Made by a program: the position numbers and the translations under genes
NCBI GenBank assembly: GCA_033485155.1
Contig: JAWQJJ010000003.1
Location: forward strand, 124,001 to 188,000
Source: Methanomassiliicoccus sp.
GTDB taxonomy: Archaea > Thermoplasmatota > Thermoplasmata > Methanomassiliicoccales > Methanomassiliicoccaceae
Length of the DNA: 64,000 bases
Direction: 5' to 3'
The notes under the pieces: generated by a model
Databases searched by the model: none
What the model was told of the DNA's origin: nothing
Seen by the model: the letters and a program-made list of their open reading frames with translations, nothing else
Shown here: in pieces, positions 2,697-25,703 of the stretch
Position numbering within the stretch: position 1 is the first letter of the stretch
Layout of the letters: every line of letters begins with the position of its first letter

Positions 2697-3875
2697 TCAG
2701 GCTCCCAGGTATCCCCTGAGGGTGTTGTTCAGCTCCTGCACCGAGCCGTCGCTGACGATCAACGGGGGCACCATCCGGACAACCCGCCCACCGCACACGT
2801 TGACCAGAATGCCGGCGTTCAGGGCATATTCCTGGAACTTCCTGGCTTCCTCGCCCATGTCCAGCCCGATCATCAGTCCCTGACCGCGAACCTCGGCAAC
2901 CTTGCTTCCGTGGACAGCGATGGTCCTCAGTTCCTGGGCCCATTTCGCGCCCAGCTCAGCGGAGCGCTCGACCAGCCGGTCGCGCTTCATGACCTCGATG
3001 ACCGTCCTGGCGGTGGCGCAGGAGAGAGGGTTTCCGCCGAAGGTGGTGCCGTGGGTGCCCGGCTTGAAGGTGGCGGCGATTTCCCTGGTGCTCACGCAGG
3101 CCCCGATGGGGACGCCGCTGCCGAGAGCCTTGGCCAGGGTCATGATGTCCGGCACTACGCCATAATGCTGGAATCCGAACCACTTGCCGGTGCGTCCCAT
3201 GCCCGTCTGGACCTCATCCATGATAAGCAGCGCACCCCGCTCGTCGCACAGATCCCTGGCGGTGCGCACGAACTCCTCGCCCGCCGGGATGATCCCTCCC
3301 TCCCCCTGGATGGGCTCGAAAATCACCGCTGCGGTGTCCCTGGTAATCGCAACCTTAAGCTGCTCGACGCTCCCATAATCGATGAAATCGAAGGCCTTGG
3401 ACAGCAGGGGCTCGAACCCCGAATGGTATTTGGGCTGGCCCGTGGCCGATAGGGTCACCGAGGTCCGGCCGTGGAATGAGTTCCTGGTGGACAACACCCG
3501 GCTCCGGCCGGTGGCCTTCACCGCCAGCTTGAGGGCGGCCTCGTTGGCCTCGGCCCCGCTGTTGCAGAACATGGTCGCCCCCAGAGGGGACGGCAGGATG
3601 CTCGCCAGCGCCTCAGCGGCCAAGGCCTGCTCCTTAACCAGGTATAGGTTGGAGACGTGAATAAGGCGGGTGGCTTGCTCGCATATCGTCCTGACGACGT
3701 CAGGGTGAGAGTATCCGAGAGAGTTGACCGCGATCCCGGCCACCAGGTCAATGTACCTCCGCCCCGATAGGTCGTAGAGGTATTCCCTCTCCCCATGGTC
3801 GAAGCATAGATCTTGGCGTCCGTAGTTTTGAAACAGGAACTGGTGGTCCAGCTCCTTCACCTTTTCTTTGTTCAT
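2697..3875 (-). CDS. argD: Acetylornithine aminotransferase
   Basis: A class III PLP-dependent aminotransferase of 392 residues, the normal length. It converts N-acetylglutamate semialdehyde and glutamate to N-acetylornithine and 2-oxoglutarate in the cytoplasm. Visible motifs are [13 protein letters not shown] (about 104-116), FEPIQGEGG (about 187-194), [12 protein letters not shown] (220-231), the PLP-binding Lys249 in TLAKALGSG, and [10 protein letters not shown]. It is the last gene of the leftward argC-argJ-argB-argD cluster and starts 3 bases after argB ends. ArgD homologues in some archaea also act in lysine synthesis (LysJ), but no LysW-type carrier gene is nearby, so arginine is the better call. 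Confidence 0.93.
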
Positions 3876-17626: not shown

Positions 17627-19324
17627 TTATCCATTTCTCCCGGGGGCCTCCATCTCGATGAGGAGGCACGCAGGGTCTTCCTCACTTTTGAGCCTAGCGC
17701 CGGCCAGCTCGAACCGCCGGCGGTGGGACCTCTCCTTCTCCTGATCTAGGACCTGCCCCTTGACATCAGCGGTTATGGTCACGGTCGGCCAGTCACCGCC
17801 GGTCAGCCCTAGGACGATCTCTCTGACCTCCAGCCCTACGTACTCCTCCAGGAGCCCGCACAGCGCGTCGACGAACCGTCTCTCGTCGATGCGGACCGCA
17901 AGATCCGCGTCCCCCTCCTTGCTCACGCTGAAAGTCATCCCATCGTAGATGGGAAGGTGGGCGATTCTCTTCGCCAGCGCTGCCAGGTAGGCGTCGTCGT
18001 CACCCACGGCATCGAGGATTTCCTCCTCGGGAGGCGGGGGCGAGGCGAGGGTGCCGATGGTGAGATCAACCAGGACGTCCAGCTGGGCTGTCGTCATCTC
18101 GATATCGAACTCCAGCCCCTTCACCGCGTTGGTGAAATCGCCCAGCAGCCTCGAGGTGCGCCTAAGGACCGACGCATCCATGAGTTCCTCCAGCTTAGTG
18201 CCTCGAAATAGGTGTTCGATGGATTGTATCGTCTGTATCGCCTTGAGGATGACCTGTAGTTGGACCTTCTGGCCCTGCAGGAACTCCTCTACGAAGTGAT
18301 GGAACTTCGCCAGGAGCTCGTCGATCTTGTCGGACTCGAGGCATTCCCTGCACCGACGGGCCTCCTCCGACTCCTCCAGCTCCTCGAGATAGTAGGAGAG
18401 GTAATACAAGCGGCCGGCGAGGACGGAGAACGCCTCGTTCGCCTCCATGAGGATATCCAGTGCGTAGTCGGACGTGAACCTGATGCGGTCCAGATCGTTC
18501 GTTTGTATCGACCCGAGCTCGCCAGCCCTCTGCAGCATGCCCTCCAGGATGGCCCTGGCCGTCTCGGTGTCCACTGGCCTACCGTGGCCGGGGCAGCATA
18601 GGTCGATCTCCCTGTTCTTCAGCAGCCAGAGGACGTTCCTCACCGAGGTCACCAGGTCGTCCCGGTTCCATCCGACCTGCCCGGCAATGCCGGGGTCAGC
18701 GGCGAACAGGAGGTCCCCAGTGAAGAGCATCCTACCGACCAGATAACACACGCTGTCCGGGCTGTGGCCCGGGGTATGGAACACTTCCATGGCGCCTCCG
18801 TCGAGCGGCACGATCTGCCGCCTCAGCGTTAGACCTTCGCATGTCGGCATGGCGTCCATCTTCGTTCCCAGGGAGACCTCTCCGGTCAATTCTCCTCCAT
18901 CCAGCAGGGAGGAGCAGCTTATCTGGAGGGAAGACGGCGGGAAAGCCCAGCCCATCACCTTGGCCTGCGTCAGGTCAGGATCGAGGGATCTCAACGCCTC
19001 AGCCCCCGCCTCCTGGACTGCCAGCTTCATCGACCCTTTTCCCTCGCTGTGGTACGCCGACACGATCTGGAAGCAGTGATCAACGTGGCAATGAGTAAGG
19101 TAGAAAGTCGCGTCGAGGCCGGCGGCGACCCCCTGCTGCACTATCTCCAGTATGCGAGCCATCTGCTCGGCATCGGCACCCGGGTCGATGACGATAAGCT
19201 CGCAGGGGGTTCGCAGGACATAGGAGTTGCAGGACACGATGTCCGGCTTCCTTATGAACGGGTATAGCTCGACACACTCGAAGCCAGGTACAGGCTGCCA
19301 TTTTACGCTCTCCAAGGCAGTCAT
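17627..19324 (-). CDS. Metallo-beta-lactamase-fold protein with a histidine-kinase-like C-terminal half
   Basis: Residues 1-270 are a metallo-beta-lactamase (MBL) fold with the metal motif THCHVDH (77-83), HTPGHSPDSV, FTGDLLF and a final CPGHGRPVD. The remaining 300 residues are mostly long helices (for example LAKFHHFVEEFLQ) followed by a domain that resembles a degenerate HATPase: ERRFVDALCGLLEEYV is placed like an N-box, but the G boxes are missing. The ATG at 19324 shares one base with the stop of the STAS gene (TGATG), which fixes the start; an earlier in-frame Met would add 33 unlikely residues. It is the last gene of the four-gene partner-switching operon and may be its input or output. 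Confidence 0.75.
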   Translation of the reverse strand: MTALESVKWQPVPGFECVELYPFIRKPDIVSCNSYVLRTPCELIVIDPGADAEQMARILEIVQQGVAAGLDATFYLTHCHVDHCFQIVSAYHSEGKGSMKLAVQEAGAEALRSLDPDLTQAKVMGWAFPPSSLQISCSSLLDGGELTGEVSLGTKMDAMPTCEGLTLRRQIVPLDGGAMEVFHTPGHSPDSVCYLVGRMLFTGDLLFAADPGIAGQVGWNRDDLVTSVRNVLWLLKNREIDLCCPGHGRPVDTETARAILEGMLQRAGELGSIQTNDLDRIRFTSDYALDILMEANEAFSVLAGRLYYLSYYLEELEESEEARRCRECLESDKIDELLAKFHHFVEEFLQGQKVQLQVILKAIQTIQSIEHLFRGTKLEELMDASVLRRTSRLLGDFTNAVKGLEFDIEMTTAQLDVLVDLTIGTLASPPPPEEEILDAVGDDDAYLAALAKRIAHLPIYDGMTFSVSKEGDADLAVRIDERRFVDALCGLLEEYVGLEVREIVLGLTGGDWPTVTITADVKGQVLDQEKERSHRRRFELAGARLKSEEDPACLLIEMEAPGRNG

Positions 19325-19662
19325 CAGCTTCCCAGCGCTTCCTGTTCGCTCGCGAATATGCTGAAGATGCTCGTGAAGCCCGCCAGCTTGAATATCTTGA
19401 GGACAGCGGGAGTGAGGCAGCACAGCTTGAGCGAGCCTCCATTCTTACGCAGCTCCTTCAAAGTGGCGAGGAAGACCCTAAGCCCGCCGCTGCTGATGTA
19501 ATCGGTATCCTTCAGGTCCACCAGTATGTTCTGGTGGCCCTCGCCCATCGCCTTCTTGAGGCAGTCCTCGAGGGTCTTGGCCGAGTACGCGTCTATCCGG
19601 CCTATGGTGTCTATGATCCGTATCCCGTTGCTGTCACTTTCCTTTATCTCCATTTCGGTCAA
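19324..19662 (-). CDS. STAS-domain anti-sigma-factor-antagonist-like protein
   Basis: A 112-residue single STAS domain, like bacterial SpoIIAA and RsbV. The phosphorylation loop is intact in DTDYISSGGLRVFLATL, with Ser57 at the position phosphorylated by the partner kinase in bacteria. The central helix LEDCLKKAMGEG and the strand NILVDLKD match the family. It follows the kinase gene by 16 bases and overlaps the MBL gene by one base. In bacteria the unphosphorylated antagonist binds the kinase and frees its target. Archaea lack sigma factors, so the target here must be different. Confidence 0.88.
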   Translation of the reverse strand: MTEMEIKESDSNGIRIIDTIGRIDAYSAKTLEDCLKKAMGEGHQNILVDLKDTDYISSGGLRVFLATLKELRKNGGSLKLCCLTPAVLKIFKLAGFTSIFSIFASEQEALGS

Positions 19663-19678
19663 CTCGCTGCTTCTTTGC

Positions 19679-20104
19679 TCATGAAATGTTATTGTTCGCG
19701 GTGCCCATCACCATGACAAGCACGTTCGTACCCGCTTCCCTACAGTATCGGACATCGTCGACTAGACTCCTCATCAGATGTATGCCCAGCCCGCCGACGA
19801 CACGGCCTTCCGGCGCCTCGTTGAGGTTCGGCGGCGGGACGTTAAGAGGGTCGAAAGGCTTCCCATGGTCCCTGAACGTAAGGTAGATCGCCATCCCCTC
19901 GACCTCGACGCTGACCTCGACGCTCCCCGGACCGTCGTAGGCATGCTCGGCCACGTTGGTGAACGCCTCCTCGGCGGCTACCAGAAGGTCCGTCATTCTC
20001 TCCTCGCTCCGCAGAGCCTCGGAAATTAAAGGGCCAATGAAAGCAAGGACCTCCTCCAGTCGCTCCAGGCTGGCCTCGAAGACCTTGCTTCCGATCAAGC
20101 TCAT
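19679..20104 (-). CDS. RsbW/SpoIIAB-like serine kinase
   Basis: A 141-residue GHKL ATPase domain of the anti-sigma-factor kinase group. The N box is AAEEAFTNVAEHAY (43-56) with the Mg-binding Asn50, the G1 box is FRDHGKPFDP (77-86), and the G2 box is GGLGIHLMRSL (104-114). There is no His phosphorylation site or sensor, which separates it from histidine kinases. It should phosphorylate the STAS protein encoded next. It overlaps the phosphatase gene by 4 bases (ATGA). Confidence 0.87.
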   Translation of the reverse strand: MSLIGSKVFEASLERLEEVLAFIGPLISEALRSEERMTDLLVAAEEAFTNVAEHAYDGPGSVEVSVEVEGMAIYLTFRDHGKPFDPLNVPPPNLNEAPEGRVVGGLGIHLMRSLVDDVRYCREAGTNVLVMVMGTANNNIS

Positions 20105-21474
20105 CCATCCACCCCGACCTTCAGCGCCATGAGGGTGATGTCATCATATTGGACAACACCCTTGGAGAACTCCAGAACATCATTCTTGATCCCCTCGACG
20201 ACGTCTGTAGCCGATGCGGACCCGAGCCTCCTGATGGCAAGCTTCAGCCTGTCCTCGCCATATAGCTCCCCGGATGGTGCGTTGGCCTCGGTGACACCGT
20301 CGGTGTAGAACAGCACCAGGTCTCCTTCCTGCAGCTGCAGCTCCCTCTCCTCCGGCACGGCGCCCTCCATCGCACCCAGCGCGATTCCTTCGCCTGCAAG
20401 CTCGGTGAAAGCGTCTGACCTTAGAAGCAACGGCGGATTGTGCCCGGCGTTGGAATAGGTCAGCTTCCTGGCCGAACGGTCCAGGACGGCATAGAACAGC
20501 GTCACGAACATGCCTGATGACTCGGAGGTCTCGGCGATCAGACGGTTCGCCTCGGCCAGGGCGGCCGACGGCCCCGGTGCCTTCAAGGAGGTTGCCCGCA
20601 GGACTGTTCTCGACAGAGCCATGTATATAGCCCCAGGCACGCCCTTGCCGGAGACATCGGCTATGACCAGACCGGACCGCTCGCCACCGAGGTCGATGAA
20701 GTCGTAGAAGTCACCGCCCACCTCCTTGGCCGAGAGGTTGAGCGCGTGTACATCGTATCTCTCGACCGACGGCCCGCTCTTGGGCAGGAAGCTCTGCTGT
20801 ATGTCCCTGGCAACCTCCATTTCGAACTTCTCCTTCTCGATGGCATCGTGCAGCCGGTCGCGCTCTTCCTGCGTTCTCCGCTCCTTCATCAGATTGTTGA
20901 TTATGTAGGCGAACAAGAGCATGCCCAGAGCATTGACCACTATCATCGGCGGACCTACCCGCTCGACCACATTCACGGCGTAATCGTATGGCGTGACGAG
21001 CAGGATGACCAGAGCCATGTGGAACACCTCCTGCATGATGGCGAAGGCCACCGCCACCAATACTCCGGGGAACCTCTTCCCGGCGATGTACCATATAATG
21101 CTGCCGAATACCCCGGCGAAGATGGTCGCGAGCGAGCAGGAGAGCGTGGTTTCCCCGCCCACGAACAGCAGGCGGTGTATCCCACCGATCAGGCCAGCAC
21201 CGATGCCCATCAACGGCCCTCCCACAAGGCCGGCGATCATGGGGCCGAGGTCACGCACGTTGACCTTGACTCCCATGATATCTATGCCCGCGTAGGTGCC
21301 GAAGATGGACAGGAGACCGAAGGCCAGCATGAGAATTATCTGGCTCTTCCATGGGATCTTACCTCCGAGGGACTCCGAGAAAATCTTGGTGCGAGTTATG
21401 ACATAGGCGGCCACTATGATGACGCACATGATCTCGGTCAGCGAGATCAGCAGGTCAGCGGTCACGGCGTCCAT
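20101..21474 (-). CDS. Membrane-bound SpoIIE/PP2C phosphatase with 5TM-LytS sensor
   Basis: A 457-residue protein. Residues 1-195 hold about five or six membrane segments of the 5TMR-LYT type (as in LytS) with the conserved VNVRDLGPMIAGLVGGPLMG and GIGAGLIGGIHR. A short coiled coil (200-225) leads to a complete SpoIIE-type PP2C domain with metal-binding Asps in GGDFYDF (253-259) and ADVSGKG (272-278), and TDGVTEA near the end. It should dephosphorylate the STAS protein in response to an envelope or small-molecule signal, like RsbU or SpoIIE. It is the first gene of the operon and has its own TATA box. Confidence 0.9.
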   Translation of the reverse strand: MDAVTADLLISLTEIMCVIIVAAYVITRTKIFSESLGGKIPWKSQIILMLAFGLLSIFGTYAGIDIMGVKVNVRDLGPMIAGLVGGPLMGIGAGLIGGIHRLLFVGGETTLSCSLATIFAGVFGSIIWYIAGKRFPGVLVAVAFAIMQEVFHMALVILLVTPYDYAVNVVERVGPPMIVVNALGMLLFAYIINNLMKERRTQEERDRLHDAIEKEKFEMEVARDIQQSFLPKSGPSVERYDVHALNLSAKEVGGDFYDFIDLGGERSGLVIADVSGKGVPGAIYMALSRTVLRATSLKAPGPSAALAEANRLIAETSESSGMFVTLFYAVLDRSARKLTYSNAGHNPPLLLRSDAFTELAGEGIALGAMEGAVPEERELQLQEGDLVLFYTDGVTEANAPSGELYGEDRLKLAIRRLGSASATDVVEGIKNDVLEFSKGVVQYDDITLMALKVGVDG

Positions 21475-21494
21475 GCTAGCCCTCCGCGGTCATC

Positions 21495-21511
21495 AATAAA
21501 AATATATTAAT
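21495..21511 (-). promoter_or_regulatory. Promoter of the partner-switching operon
   Basis: The minus strand reads ATTAATATATTTTTATT, centred about 30 bases before the ATG at 21474. A GGAGGG motif lies 7 bases before the same ATG. Both signals agree on the start. Confidence 0.6.
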
Positions 21512-22655: not shown

Positions 22656-25600
22656 TCACTTCTTCTCGTTCTTCCTCCGGTAGAGAAGGAAGCCGATGAC
22701 CAAGAGCGCAGCGACCAGGACGGCGAAGATGCCAGCGGTCCACAGGATGCTGCCGTTATCACCGTTCACGGGCGCAGTCTTCGCGATGCTCAGCGTCGCC
22801 AGGTCGGTGGTCTCGCCGGCCGATGTGCTCACCGTCTGAGTGATCGTCTGGAAGCCATCCTTGGTTATCGTGAGCGTATACGAACCGGACGGCACCCCAG
22901 TGAACTCGAAGTAACCGTTCACGTCGGTTATCGTGGTCATTCCGTTGCTCAGCGTGACCGTGGCGTTGGCGACCACGTTGCCGTCGGCGCCCTTGATCGA
23001 TCCGCATATCACTCCCTTGTCCGAGAGCGTGGTAAAGGTGCTCTCCGAAGTCATCTCGTTCCCGGCCAGGTCCTTGCCTGATATGGTGATTGAGTACTCG
23101 GTGCCGTAAGCGAGCGAGGTGGACGGAGTCAACGTTGCTACGTTGCCGTTCCAAGTGATCGTTCCGGCAACACCGTTCACCACGATGTTCACCGACGAGA
23201 TGTTCATCGCTTCGGAGAACTCGACCATGATAACCGAGCTGATCGCTACGTTACTGCCGCTGGGAGATATGGTCGCGGTCGGCGCCACATCGTCGACGAT
23301 CTCGAACTCTACTTCGGTCGAGTTCCAGTTGCCGGCGTAGTCGCGTGCTTTGACGATCACGATGTGTTGCCCGTTAGCTAACGAGAGGAGGTGCGAGGTG
23401 TTATGCCCAACATCCACGAACGAACCTCCATCCACACTGATCCAGTACCGGCCGATTCCCGAGGCCGAGGAACCGCTCCAAGAAACATGGACGTCGGTAG
23501 AGCCAACGTTCGAGTCGTTCATCGGCTCGGTGATGACGATCGATGGCAGCTCGATCTCGATGTTGAAGACCTTGCTCGCCACCTGGAAATTGCCGGCATG
23601 GTCGTAGGCGCGGACGGAAACGGTGTGCTGCCCGTCGGCGAGCGCCGTGAACTCGTAGTAGTAGTTCGTCACGTCGATGAACGCTCCACCGTCCAGGGAA
23701 ACGGACATGTTGGCGATGCCGCTCGCGTCCGACGCGGTCCAGGTGACGTTCATTACCGTGATGTTGTACCACGCGCCGACCGCCGGGCTGGTTATGGTCA
23801 CTTCAGGAGCATCGGAGTCTACGATGTAGAACGGCAGCTCATCGGCCATGCTTCCGCCGTCGATGAGGTAGCGCTCGTTCGACTGCCAGTCGACCCAGAA
23901 GTTGCCGCGTATGGTAGAATTCCAGGTGTTGGTGCCGTCGTCGTAAGCCTGGACATGGCTCGAACTGTACTCAGACGTAGCTCCCCTGTTGTCGATGAGC
24001 GCATTATCGTAGATCAAATTAGAGCTACTGCTCATGACGTAGATGCCGTAGTCAGCGGAATCGACGATCGTGTTGCCGACGAGGGTGTTGTTGCTCGAGG
24101 CGGTCAATAAGATGCCATGGCTGGTCGAGCCGACCATCGAATTGTCAATGGCGGTGATGTTGTTCGAACTGTCTAGATAGATACCATTCCCATTGCCGTT
24201 GCAGGTGTTGTTCGAAACGATTATGTTGCTCGAGCTCCCCACGAAGATCCCTTCCCACGGTGCGTTGATGAACACATTGTCATCGATTATGCAGTGGTTC
24301 GACAGGAACATGCAGACCGGGTTGGTGGCGTTATCGATCTTATTATCCTCGATGACTAGGTACGAAGATATGCCGATGACCACACCGCCATAGTTCATGG
24401 AAAGCCCGCTGATGTCAGCATCGGTCACGTTGAGCAGAATGATCTCGCCGATACCAGAAGAGGGAACGGATGCGCCATCCAGGTCTGCGTTCTTCAGGAA
24501 GTAGACCGGTAGGCCGTTGACTGTGTTGGTTGAGGTTATCTTCATCACATCGACATACTCTTGAACATCCAGGGGGTCTGCCCAGAGATCGAACGAGCAG
24601 TTGACGAGGGTGTTGCCATCCATGTACCCGGTGCAATTATTCAGGTAGATCCCTACACCGCTCACGTCTGTGCAGGTGTTGTTCGACACGGTGCAACGGC
24701 TCGATGAGCCCACCATGATGCCACTATCGCCGCCGATGCAGGTGTTGTTCGACACCAGACTGTCGTTTGAAATGCCCAGAAGGATAGCTCCCCCGGAGAT
24801 GTCACGGTAAGTGTTGTTGATGATGATGCTATTACCCGAGAATTCTATGAAAATGCCGTAGTAATCGTTACTACCAGTGTTGTTCGAGAAGGTGCTGTTG
24901 TCAGAGTATGATAACCGGATTCCGGCGAAAGTGCTGTTACAGCAGTTGTTGGTTAGGGTGCTGTTGCTCGAAAATTCCAGAAAGATCCCTTGGAACATGT
25001 TGCCATTGCAGGTGTTGTGCGACAGAACGGACCTGCTAGATTCATCCAGCCATATGCCGTCCTGATCATTGCCATTGCAGGTGTTGTTCAAGAAATCGTT
25101 ATTGGTTGACCAGATCGACCGGATGCCGAAACTATTGTCGCTGCAGTTGTTGTCCAGGACATCATTGTTGTTCGAGGAATACAGATAGATGCCGATCTCG
25201 ATGATGCCGCTGCAGTTGTTGTTCGATATGATGTTGTTGTTCGATGAGGATAGATACATCCCACGATAACCACTGCAGTTGTTGTTCGATATGGTGTTGT
25301 TGTTCGATGAGCCTAGGAGGATATCGACGCCACTGGACAAGCCATTGATTGCGTTGCCTACGATTGTCACGTTGCTCGATCTATAGATGTTGATGCCGTG
25401 GTAAGAGGTAGTGATGGTACAGCTCCTTATGGTCACGAACAGGCTGGTTTCGGATATCGATATCGCCGTGCCACTTCCTGCGTCGAAGCTCAGGTTAGCG
25501 ATCGTGTACGGGTTCTCGGCCGAGCCGTCGCCAGTCCACCCCTTTGTTGAGGCTTGACTGACGAGATCTGAATTTCCGTATATGACGATCGGGTCTGACG

Positions 25601-25703
25601 GGGTGAGCGAGGCGCTCGCCATCGGTGACGCCAGAACCATCAGTTCGGTCATTAACAAGGCAGCTACTGTGATAGCAGACAAAATCTTTCGTCCGATGAT
25701 CAT
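22656..25703 (-). CDS. Secreted right-handed beta-helix (NosD-like) surface protein with Ig-like domains
   Basis: A 1015-residue exported protein. Residues 1-32 form a signal peptide. About 85-360 and 430-590 are PbH1/NosD coils with repeated N-N-x-C and I-x-x-N-x-[TC] motifs. Ig-like modules follow (about 640-820), each closing with a VRAYDHAGN-type strand. A bacterial Ig-like (Big_5) module with VEFSEAMNISS comes next, then a carboxypeptidase-regulatory-like fold (GSIKGADGNVVANATVTL). Finally there is one membrane segment and a basic tail (RRKNEKK), which anchors it to the cell with the bulk outside. Such proteins bind or cleave polysaccharides; no catalytic residues can be assigned. It ends at a strong terminator. 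Confidence 0.85.
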   Translation of the reverse strand: MIIGRKILSAITVAALLMTELMVLASPMASASLTPSDPIVIYGNSDLVSQASTKGWTGDGSAENPYTIANLSFDAGSGTAISISETSLFVTIRSCTITTSYHGINIYRSSNVTIVGNAINGLSSGVDILLGSSNNNTISNNNCSGYRGMYLSSSNNNIISNNNCSGIIEIGIYLYSSNNNDVLDNNCSDNSFGIRSIWSTNNDFLNNTCNGNDQDGIWLDESSRSVLSHNTCNGNMFQGIFLEFSSNSTLTNNCCNSTFAGIRLSYSDNSTFSNNTGSNDYYGIFIEFSGNSIIINNTYRDISGGAILLGISNDSLVSNNTCIGGDSGIMVGSSSRCTVSNNTCTDVSGVGIYLNNCTGYMDGNTLVNCSFDLWADPLDVQEYVDVMKITSTNTVNGLPVYFLKNADLDGASVPSSGIGEIILLNVTDADISGLSMNYGGVVIGISSYLVIEDNKIDNATNPVCMFLSNHCIIDDNVFINAPWEGIFVGSSSNIIVSNNTCNGNGNGIYLDSSNNITAIDNSMVGSTSHGILLTASSNNTLVGNTIVDSADYGIYVMSSSSNLIYDNALIDNRGATSEYSSSHVQAYDDGTNTWNSTIRGNFWVDWQSNERYLIDGGSMADELPFYIVDSDAPEVTITSPAVGAWYNITVMNVTWTASDASGIANMSVSLDGGAFIDVTNYYYEFTALADGQHTVSVRAYDHAGNFQVASKVFNIEIELPSIVITEPMNDSNVGSTDVHVSWSGSSASGIGRYWISVDGGSFVDVGHNTSHLLSLANGQHIVIVKARDYAGNWNSTEVEFEIVDDVAPTATISPSGSNVAISSVIMVEFSEAMNISSVNIVVNGVAGTITWNGNVATLTPSTSLAYGTEYSITISGKDLAGNEMTSESTFTTLSDKGVICGSIKGADGNVVANATVTLSNGMTTITDVNGYFEFTGVPSGSYTLTITKDGFQTITQTVSTSAGETTDLATLSIAKTAPVNGDNGSILWTAGIFAVLVAALLVIGFLLYRRKNEKK
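24640..25320 (-). repeat. Tandem PbH1 coils with a regular Asn/Cys pattern
   Basis: Within the beta-helix gene, the coding DNA repeats short blocks on a 22-26 codon period. The motif GTTGTTCGA (plus-strand spelling) recurs many times. Each coil carries N-N-x-C or close to it (for example SNNNCSG, DNNCSD, LNNTCNG, SHNTCNG, SNNTCIG), which would stack Asn and Cys residues in ladders. Confidence 0.7.

Follow-up and report, generated by a model that had tools for sequence, protein, structure and literature searches.

Partner switches built from a phosphatase, a serine kinase and a STAS protein are known as the SpoIIE-SpoIIAB-SpoIIAA and RsbU-RsbW-RsbV systems of Bacillus, and switches that act on targets other than sigma factors are also known in bacteria. 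To our knowledge, archaea have no sigma factors, yet some of them have anti-sigma and anti-anti-sigma proteins. Trios of STAS, SpoIIE and RsbW proteins were described in 2009 from archaea without a sigma factor, including Memar_2467-2469 and Mlab_1450-1452 of the Methanomicrobiales, with the target left open (PMC2686161), and further archaeal cases followed in 2010 from Methanobrevibacter (PMC2812497). In Pseudomonas aeruginosa, the SiaABCD system, likewise without a sigma factor, combines a PP2C phosphatase, a SpoIIAB-like kinase and a STAS-like protein with a co-encoded enzyme, SiaD, whose stalk helices are bound by SiaC, which activates it (PMC8457831, PMC7647112). Here we analyse a four-gene operon in a 64,000-nucleotide stretch of Methanomassiliicoccus sp. 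DNA (the window; contig JAWQJJ010000003.1, positions 124,001 to 188,000). It encodes such a trio together with a fourth protein, a metallo-beta-lactamase (MBL)-fold hydrolase joined to a half that is predicted to resemble a histidine kinase (the MBL-pseudokinase). We think it probable that the operon is a partner switch whose output is this co-encoded MBL-pseudokinase and that the direct contact is made by the STAS protein.

A preliminary description of the window had presented the operon as an undescribed system. Given the archaeal trios published in 2009 and 2010, this claim does not hold for the trio itself, and it is the linkage to the MBL-pseudokinase that appears to be new; no description of this protein, of its linkage in two archaeal orders or of its fusions was found in the open-licence papers searched.

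The operon and the described switches

Four intact open reading frames (ORFs) occupy positions 17627-21474 of the minus strand in the order SpoIIE phosphatase, kinase, STAS, MBL (Table 1), which bears out the tight operon described earlier. The phosphatase and kinase genes overlap via ATGA and the STAS and MBL genes via TGATG, in which the MBL start codon (ATG at 19324) lies over the STAS stop. These are the overlapping stops and starts that had been noted, and the third junction, between kinase and STAS, is a gap of 16 nt followed by a TTG start codon.

Table 1. Features of the operon, with coordinates in the window
Feature	Coordinates	Strand	Basis and remarks
Membrane phosphatase, 457 aa	20101..21474	minus	5TM-5TMR_LYT sensor, residues 30-194; SpoIIE/PPM phosphatase, residues 264-453
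RsbW/SpoIIAB-like serine kinase, 141 aa	19679..20104	minus	PF13581 HATPase_c_2, E=6e-26
RsbV/SpoIIAA-like STAS protein, 112 aa	19324..19662	minus	predicted phospho-Ser58 in YISSGGLR
Proposed output, MBL-fold metallo-hydrolase with histidine-kinase-like DHp-CA core, 565 aa	17627..19324	minus	PF00753, E=1.1e-12
MBL domain, GloB-like	18521..19324	minus	HxHxDH and further H, D, H ligands
Histidine-kinase-like DHp and CA region	17630..18520	minus	no Pfam family; predicted structure
Likely operon promoter and ribosome site	21481..21510	minus	TATA-like TTAATATATTTTT; GGAGG just before the SpoIIE ATG; read from sequence

The catalytic motifs of the first three proteins are all present, as had been claimed. 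The phosphatase (PF07228 SpoIIE, E=9.5e-49; PF07694 5TM-5TMR_LYT, E=1.6e-42) keeps GGDFYD, ADVSGKG, NAGHNP, YTDGVTE and DDITL, including the metal-binding Asp motifs that, with PF07228, place it among the SpoIIE/RsbU PPM phosphatases. The kinase is a stand-alone GHKL protein closest to RsbW (best PDB match 6m36_A), with N, G1 and G2 boxes and intact EEAFTN, DHGKPFDP and GGLGIHLM motifs; its scores lie below the cut-offs of the NCBIfam RsbW equivalog models. The STAS protein (PF01740, E=4.3e-22; TIGR00377, above cut-off) falls with RsbV and SpoIIAA, and alignment to these two matches Ser58 to their phosphorylatable Ser, where helix 2 begins. Ser57, which had been named as the phospho-site, is one residue out and is ruled out by the same alignment, in which it occupies the bacterial Asp position. 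The module is also complete, as proposed: profile searches of the 2.8-Mb host genome found a single SpoIIE, a single STAS and one strong RsbW-type kinase, the other RsbW-type matches lying in open frames of a length usual for histidine kinases.

The same genome holds no match to sigma-70 region 2 (Sigma70_r2, PF04542), in a search that was positive in 10 of 14 control genomes. A target of the sigma-70 family is thereby ruled out, in agreement with the earlier statement that archaea have none; the counter-case raised in the preliminary description, a sigma factor in every homologous operon, does not occur. The locus thus resembles the Bacillus switches in its three protein families, its intact catalytic motifs and the position of its phospho-Ser, but differs from them in the lack of a sigma factor, in its fourth gene and in the 5TM-LYT sensor of its phosphatase. 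The Methanomicrobiales regulators of 2009 are likewise archaeal trios without a sigma factor, and that of M. sediminis has the same 5TM-LYT-SpoIIE protein; however, no link to an MBL protein was given for them, whereas the present locus belongs to the Methanomassiliicoccales and has a target candidate inside the operon. SiaABCD, although alike in composition, has a GGDEF diguanylate cyclase as SiaD and a member of a divergent family, phosphorylated on Thr68, as SiaC, in contrast to the MBL-pseudokinase without GGDEF and the canonical STAS protein with Ser58 found here. A direct action of the STAS protein on the co-encoded enzyme, like that of SiaC through the helical stalk, is predicted for the window, and the linkage and the three fusions described below support it.

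The sensor of the phosphatase offers a further comparison. Its R74, R101 and C113 are spaced like Arg72, Arg99 and Cys110 of the BtsS pyruvate site (PMC10653868), the second spacing being one residue longer in the window protein, and two Arg residues 27 apart with a Cys 11-12 further on are present in all 14 MBL-linked 5TM-LYT phosphatases, in which the position of the pocket Ser is variable. The linked SpoIIE retains the 5TM-LYT sensor in eight of nine further proteins from both orders, the exception having a dCache-HAMP sensor. From these residues, a small carboxylate can reasonably be predicted as the ligand. Alike as they are to LytS and BtsS (PMC10653868) in the 5TM-5TMR_LYT domain and in the Arg/Arg/Cys spacing, these sensors differ in being coupled to SpoIIE and not to a histidine kinase, and the ligand match is a predicted one. 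In another locus (L040), the four-gene operon has directly upstream of it a gene (3197-3826) for a 209-aa protein that is similar to just the 5TM part of the phosphatase.

The MBL-pseudokinase and its linkage to the STAS gene

The identification of the fourth protein as an MBL-fold protein stands for its first half (PF00753) and had missed the histidine-kinase-like second half. The first half has the HxHxDH, H, D and H ligands of a glyoxalase II-like MBL, and it is likely to be an active metalloenzyme, because these seven metal ligands are invariant in 44 of 44 aligned homologues. Its top Foldseek matches are GloB, persulfide dioxygenase and MBL proteins; the idea of a diiron oxygen-sensor MBL was set aside, the sequence matches being of the GloB and persulfide-dioxygenase types. 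It shares its fold and all seven ligands with the glyoxalase II/GloB-type hydrolases but differs from them in the extra half of 300 residues, and since this half is a separate conserved fold, an ordinary stand-alone hydrolase is ruled out.

From about residue 270 onwards the protein has no Pfam family and no HATPase_c match, and searches with the C-terminal half against Pfam or PDB sequences gave nothing significant. The AlphaFold model (pLDDT 84 for the whole protein and 85 for the C-terminal half alone) predicts long helices and, after them, an alpha/beta domain, and among the 50 Foldseek matches to the PDB listed for this half all are DHp-CA histidine kinases or histidine-kinase-like phytochrome modules, including HK853, CpxA, DivL and RetS (best E=5e-6). 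TM-scores are 0.3-0.4 over the whole region, as would be expected if two subdomains differ in angle. The half is read as a pseudokinase because the alignment of 44 homologues has no conserved His or Asn column in it, and hence neither a phospho-His nor an N-box Asn; while it shares a predicted DHp-CA fold with HK853, DivL, RetS and CpxA, it departs from them in having no conserved phospho-accepting His, no N and G boxes and no Pfam match.

Genomes were counted with a profile of the pseudokinase half, a full-length search having drawn mostly unrelated MBL proteins. Among the Methanomassiliicoccales, 4 of 147 genomes matched, and all four keep the order SpoIIE-kinase-STAS-MBL; the MBL proteins of the other three are 69, 48 and 39% identical to the window copy, and the flanking genes differ. 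The profile matched 65 of 150 Methanomicrobiales genomes, one match being short and probably spurious, and SpoIIE is present in 62 of 64 carriers in this order against 39 of 86 non-carriers (Fisher p=2e-12, uncorrected for relatedness). Of the 65 Methanomicrobiales places in the tabulation, 19 have SpoIIE no more than 5 kb away and 37 have it no more than 25 kb away; divergent, convergent and tandem arrangements all occur.

The closest link is to the STAS gene. It was assessed in 36 archaeal loci (the four of the Methanomassiliicoccales, L058 and L205-L235, with Methanoculleus excluded) from our own selection of ORFs labelled with hidden Markov models. STAS is the immediate neighbour of the MBL gene, or fused to it, in 24 of the 36 (19 same-strand neighbours, two divergent neighbours and three fusions), and the kinase in none. 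The fusions, which place STAS at the C-terminus of the MBL-pseudokinase, come from three Methanomicrobiales genomes (L220, 3008-5098; L224, 2866-4950; L225, 2442-4526), and the SSAG phospho-site is kept in the one fusion protein read out. In Methanoculleus, a stretch of about 15 kb holds the MBL gene, an operon in the order STAS-SpoIIE-kinase and one more STAS gene.

SpoIIE occurs in 37 of the 147 Methanomassiliicoccales genomes and is often fused to, or convergent with, a kinase domain, so partner switches are common in this order and only some have the MBL-pseudokinase as output. Searched members of the host genus other than the window genome had neither a SpoIIE nor a pseudokinase-half match. 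A different archaeal partner-switch layout is seen at L161 (6993-9234), from the host family but a different genus, where STAS and kinase-like genes come after a fusion of SpoIIE and an RsbW-type kinase domain.

A proposed mechanism and its alternatives

The favoured reading builds on the gene content, the intact motifs, the missing sigma factor, the linkage in two orders, the three fusions and the modelled histidine-kinase-like fold; from these we infer the interactions, the direction of control, the ligand and the substrate. The 5TM-LYT domain would sense a small ligand at the membrane, for which pyruvate or another 2-oxo acid is a possibility, and thereby set the SpoIIE phosphatase, which would reverse the phosphorylation of STAS Ser58 by the RsbW-like kinase. 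The unphosphorylated STAS protein (the phosphorylated form is less likely) would dock on the DHp-like helical region of the fourth protein and alter its dimer state or conformation, turning the metallo-hydrolase on or off, with the pseudokinase half serving as a docking and conformational module and not as an ATP-using kinase. Such SiaABCD-like logic is more likely than a target held by the kinase, because it is STAS, and not the kinase, that tracks the MBL gene and fuses to it. The MBL protein, which the preliminary description had raised in passing as a possible target, is accordingly the best candidate for the output, and the linkage does not favour its main suggestion that the kinase holds back another protein. 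More broadly, there is about an even chance that the two methanogen-related orders harbour a new class of partner switch, in which a 5TM-LYT/SpoIIE phosphatase controls a metallo-hydrolase via STAS and a degenerate histidine-kinase core; as part of that same reading, with odds just as balanced, this core would have lost phosphotransfer and become a docking module for STAS.

Several observations weigh against control of the MBL-pseudokinase by the switch. In Methanoculleus, some 12-15 kb separate the MBL gene from the SpoIIE-kinase operon; at six Methanomicrobiales loci, the flanks examined contain no gene of a switch; and a Methanomicrobiales genome will often hold several genes for SpoIIE and for STAS. 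The histidine-kinase-like identity of the C-terminal half is read from a predicted fold, with modest TM-scores. The two-part protein is also found in Desulfoluna, Geobacter, Smithella, Verrucomicrobia and other bacteria, where most copies lie apart from genes of a switch, one in Opitutia having a STAS neighbour; such unlinked loci indicate that it can exist without an adjacent switch. Finally, the Methanomicrobiales have a second candidate effector, a conserved STAS protein of 435 aa encoded next to the kinase of the switch.

This protein of about 435 aa is encoded at L205 (3846-5153), L208 (3653-4918), L209 (3851-5152), L211 (6446-7753), L212 (6324-7631), L215 (6647-7951) and L221 (5899-7209). 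Its C-terminal part of 320 residues has no Pfam family and carries the motif LHNHGVVFRN..DGEFVDMRHLLDTT. It is possible that it is a second output of the same switch.

The bacterial neighbours are aldehyde:ferredoxin oxidoreductase, acyl-CoA enzymes, or a pair of a histidine kinase and a sigma-54 regulator. At L047 (3730-7749) and L045 (4299-7455), bacterial homologues adjoin genes for aldehyde:ferredoxin oxidoreductase and for dehydrogenases of acyl-CoA or 3-hydroxyacyl-CoA, a hint that the substrate may be related to acyl compounds or aldehydes. In the tree, the sequences from Methanomassiliicoccales group in a single clade (99/97), which lies among branches from bacteria and Methanomicrobiales, and the MBL-pseudokinase may predate its association with the switch or may later have left it.

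Among the alternatives, a classical switch, of the kind formed by SpoIIAB and sigma F, would have the kinase sequester the MBL-pseudokinase until STAS in its dephosphorylated form displaces it. The genes share an operon, the intact kinase resembles RsbW/SpoIIAB, the STAS protein, likewise intact, resembles RsbV/SpoIIAA, and the GHKL-like fold modelled for the target could dimerise with a GHKL kinase. Yet in the 36 archaeal loci the kinase gene never directly adjoins the MBL gene or fuses with it, and a covalent fusion of STAS to the target is hard to reconcile with STAS merely displacing it from the kinase, which leaves this alternative unlikely. Quite unlikely, too, is a role for the MBL-pseudokinase as input, in which its MBL domain would sense a metabolite or redox state and modulate STAS, with the output role falling to a transcription factor or to the 435-aa STAS protein. 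An N-terminal MBL domain before a C-terminal histidine-kinase-like core does follow the usual polarity of sensor kinases, and the conservation of the 435-aa protein beside the kinase in Methanomicrobiales would suit such a role. However, the 5TM-LYT phosphatase already provides an input, all hydrolase ligands are kept, including ones dispensable for a pure sensor, and no other candidate output is linked in the Methanomassiliicoccales. That the MBL protein is a metabolically unrelated passenger of the operon, with the switch acting in trans on another archaeal target, fits the mostly unlinked bacterial homologues but is very improbable in view of a linkage that recurs in two archaeal orders, in varied gene orders and orientations and as three gene fusions.

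Surroundings and significance of the locus

The window lies within a 316-kb contig, and the locus is adjoined by a threonyl-tRNA synthetase gene with an archaeal editing domain (Pfam), which indicates that the host is an archaeon. At 22656-25703 of the window, a large predicted surface protein combines NosD/beta-helix and Ig-like domains with a C-terminal membrane anchor.

If the favoured reading is true, control of the MBL-pseudokinase through STAS would answer the question of what the archaeal 'anti-sigma factors' act on, which has been open since 2009. Judged by their sequences, the locus and its relatives would name a concrete candidate target and, with it, its binding partner, its phospho-site and its naturally occurring fusions. 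It would also mean that a histidine-kinase core has been reused as a regulatory dock for signalling by Ser phosphorylation.

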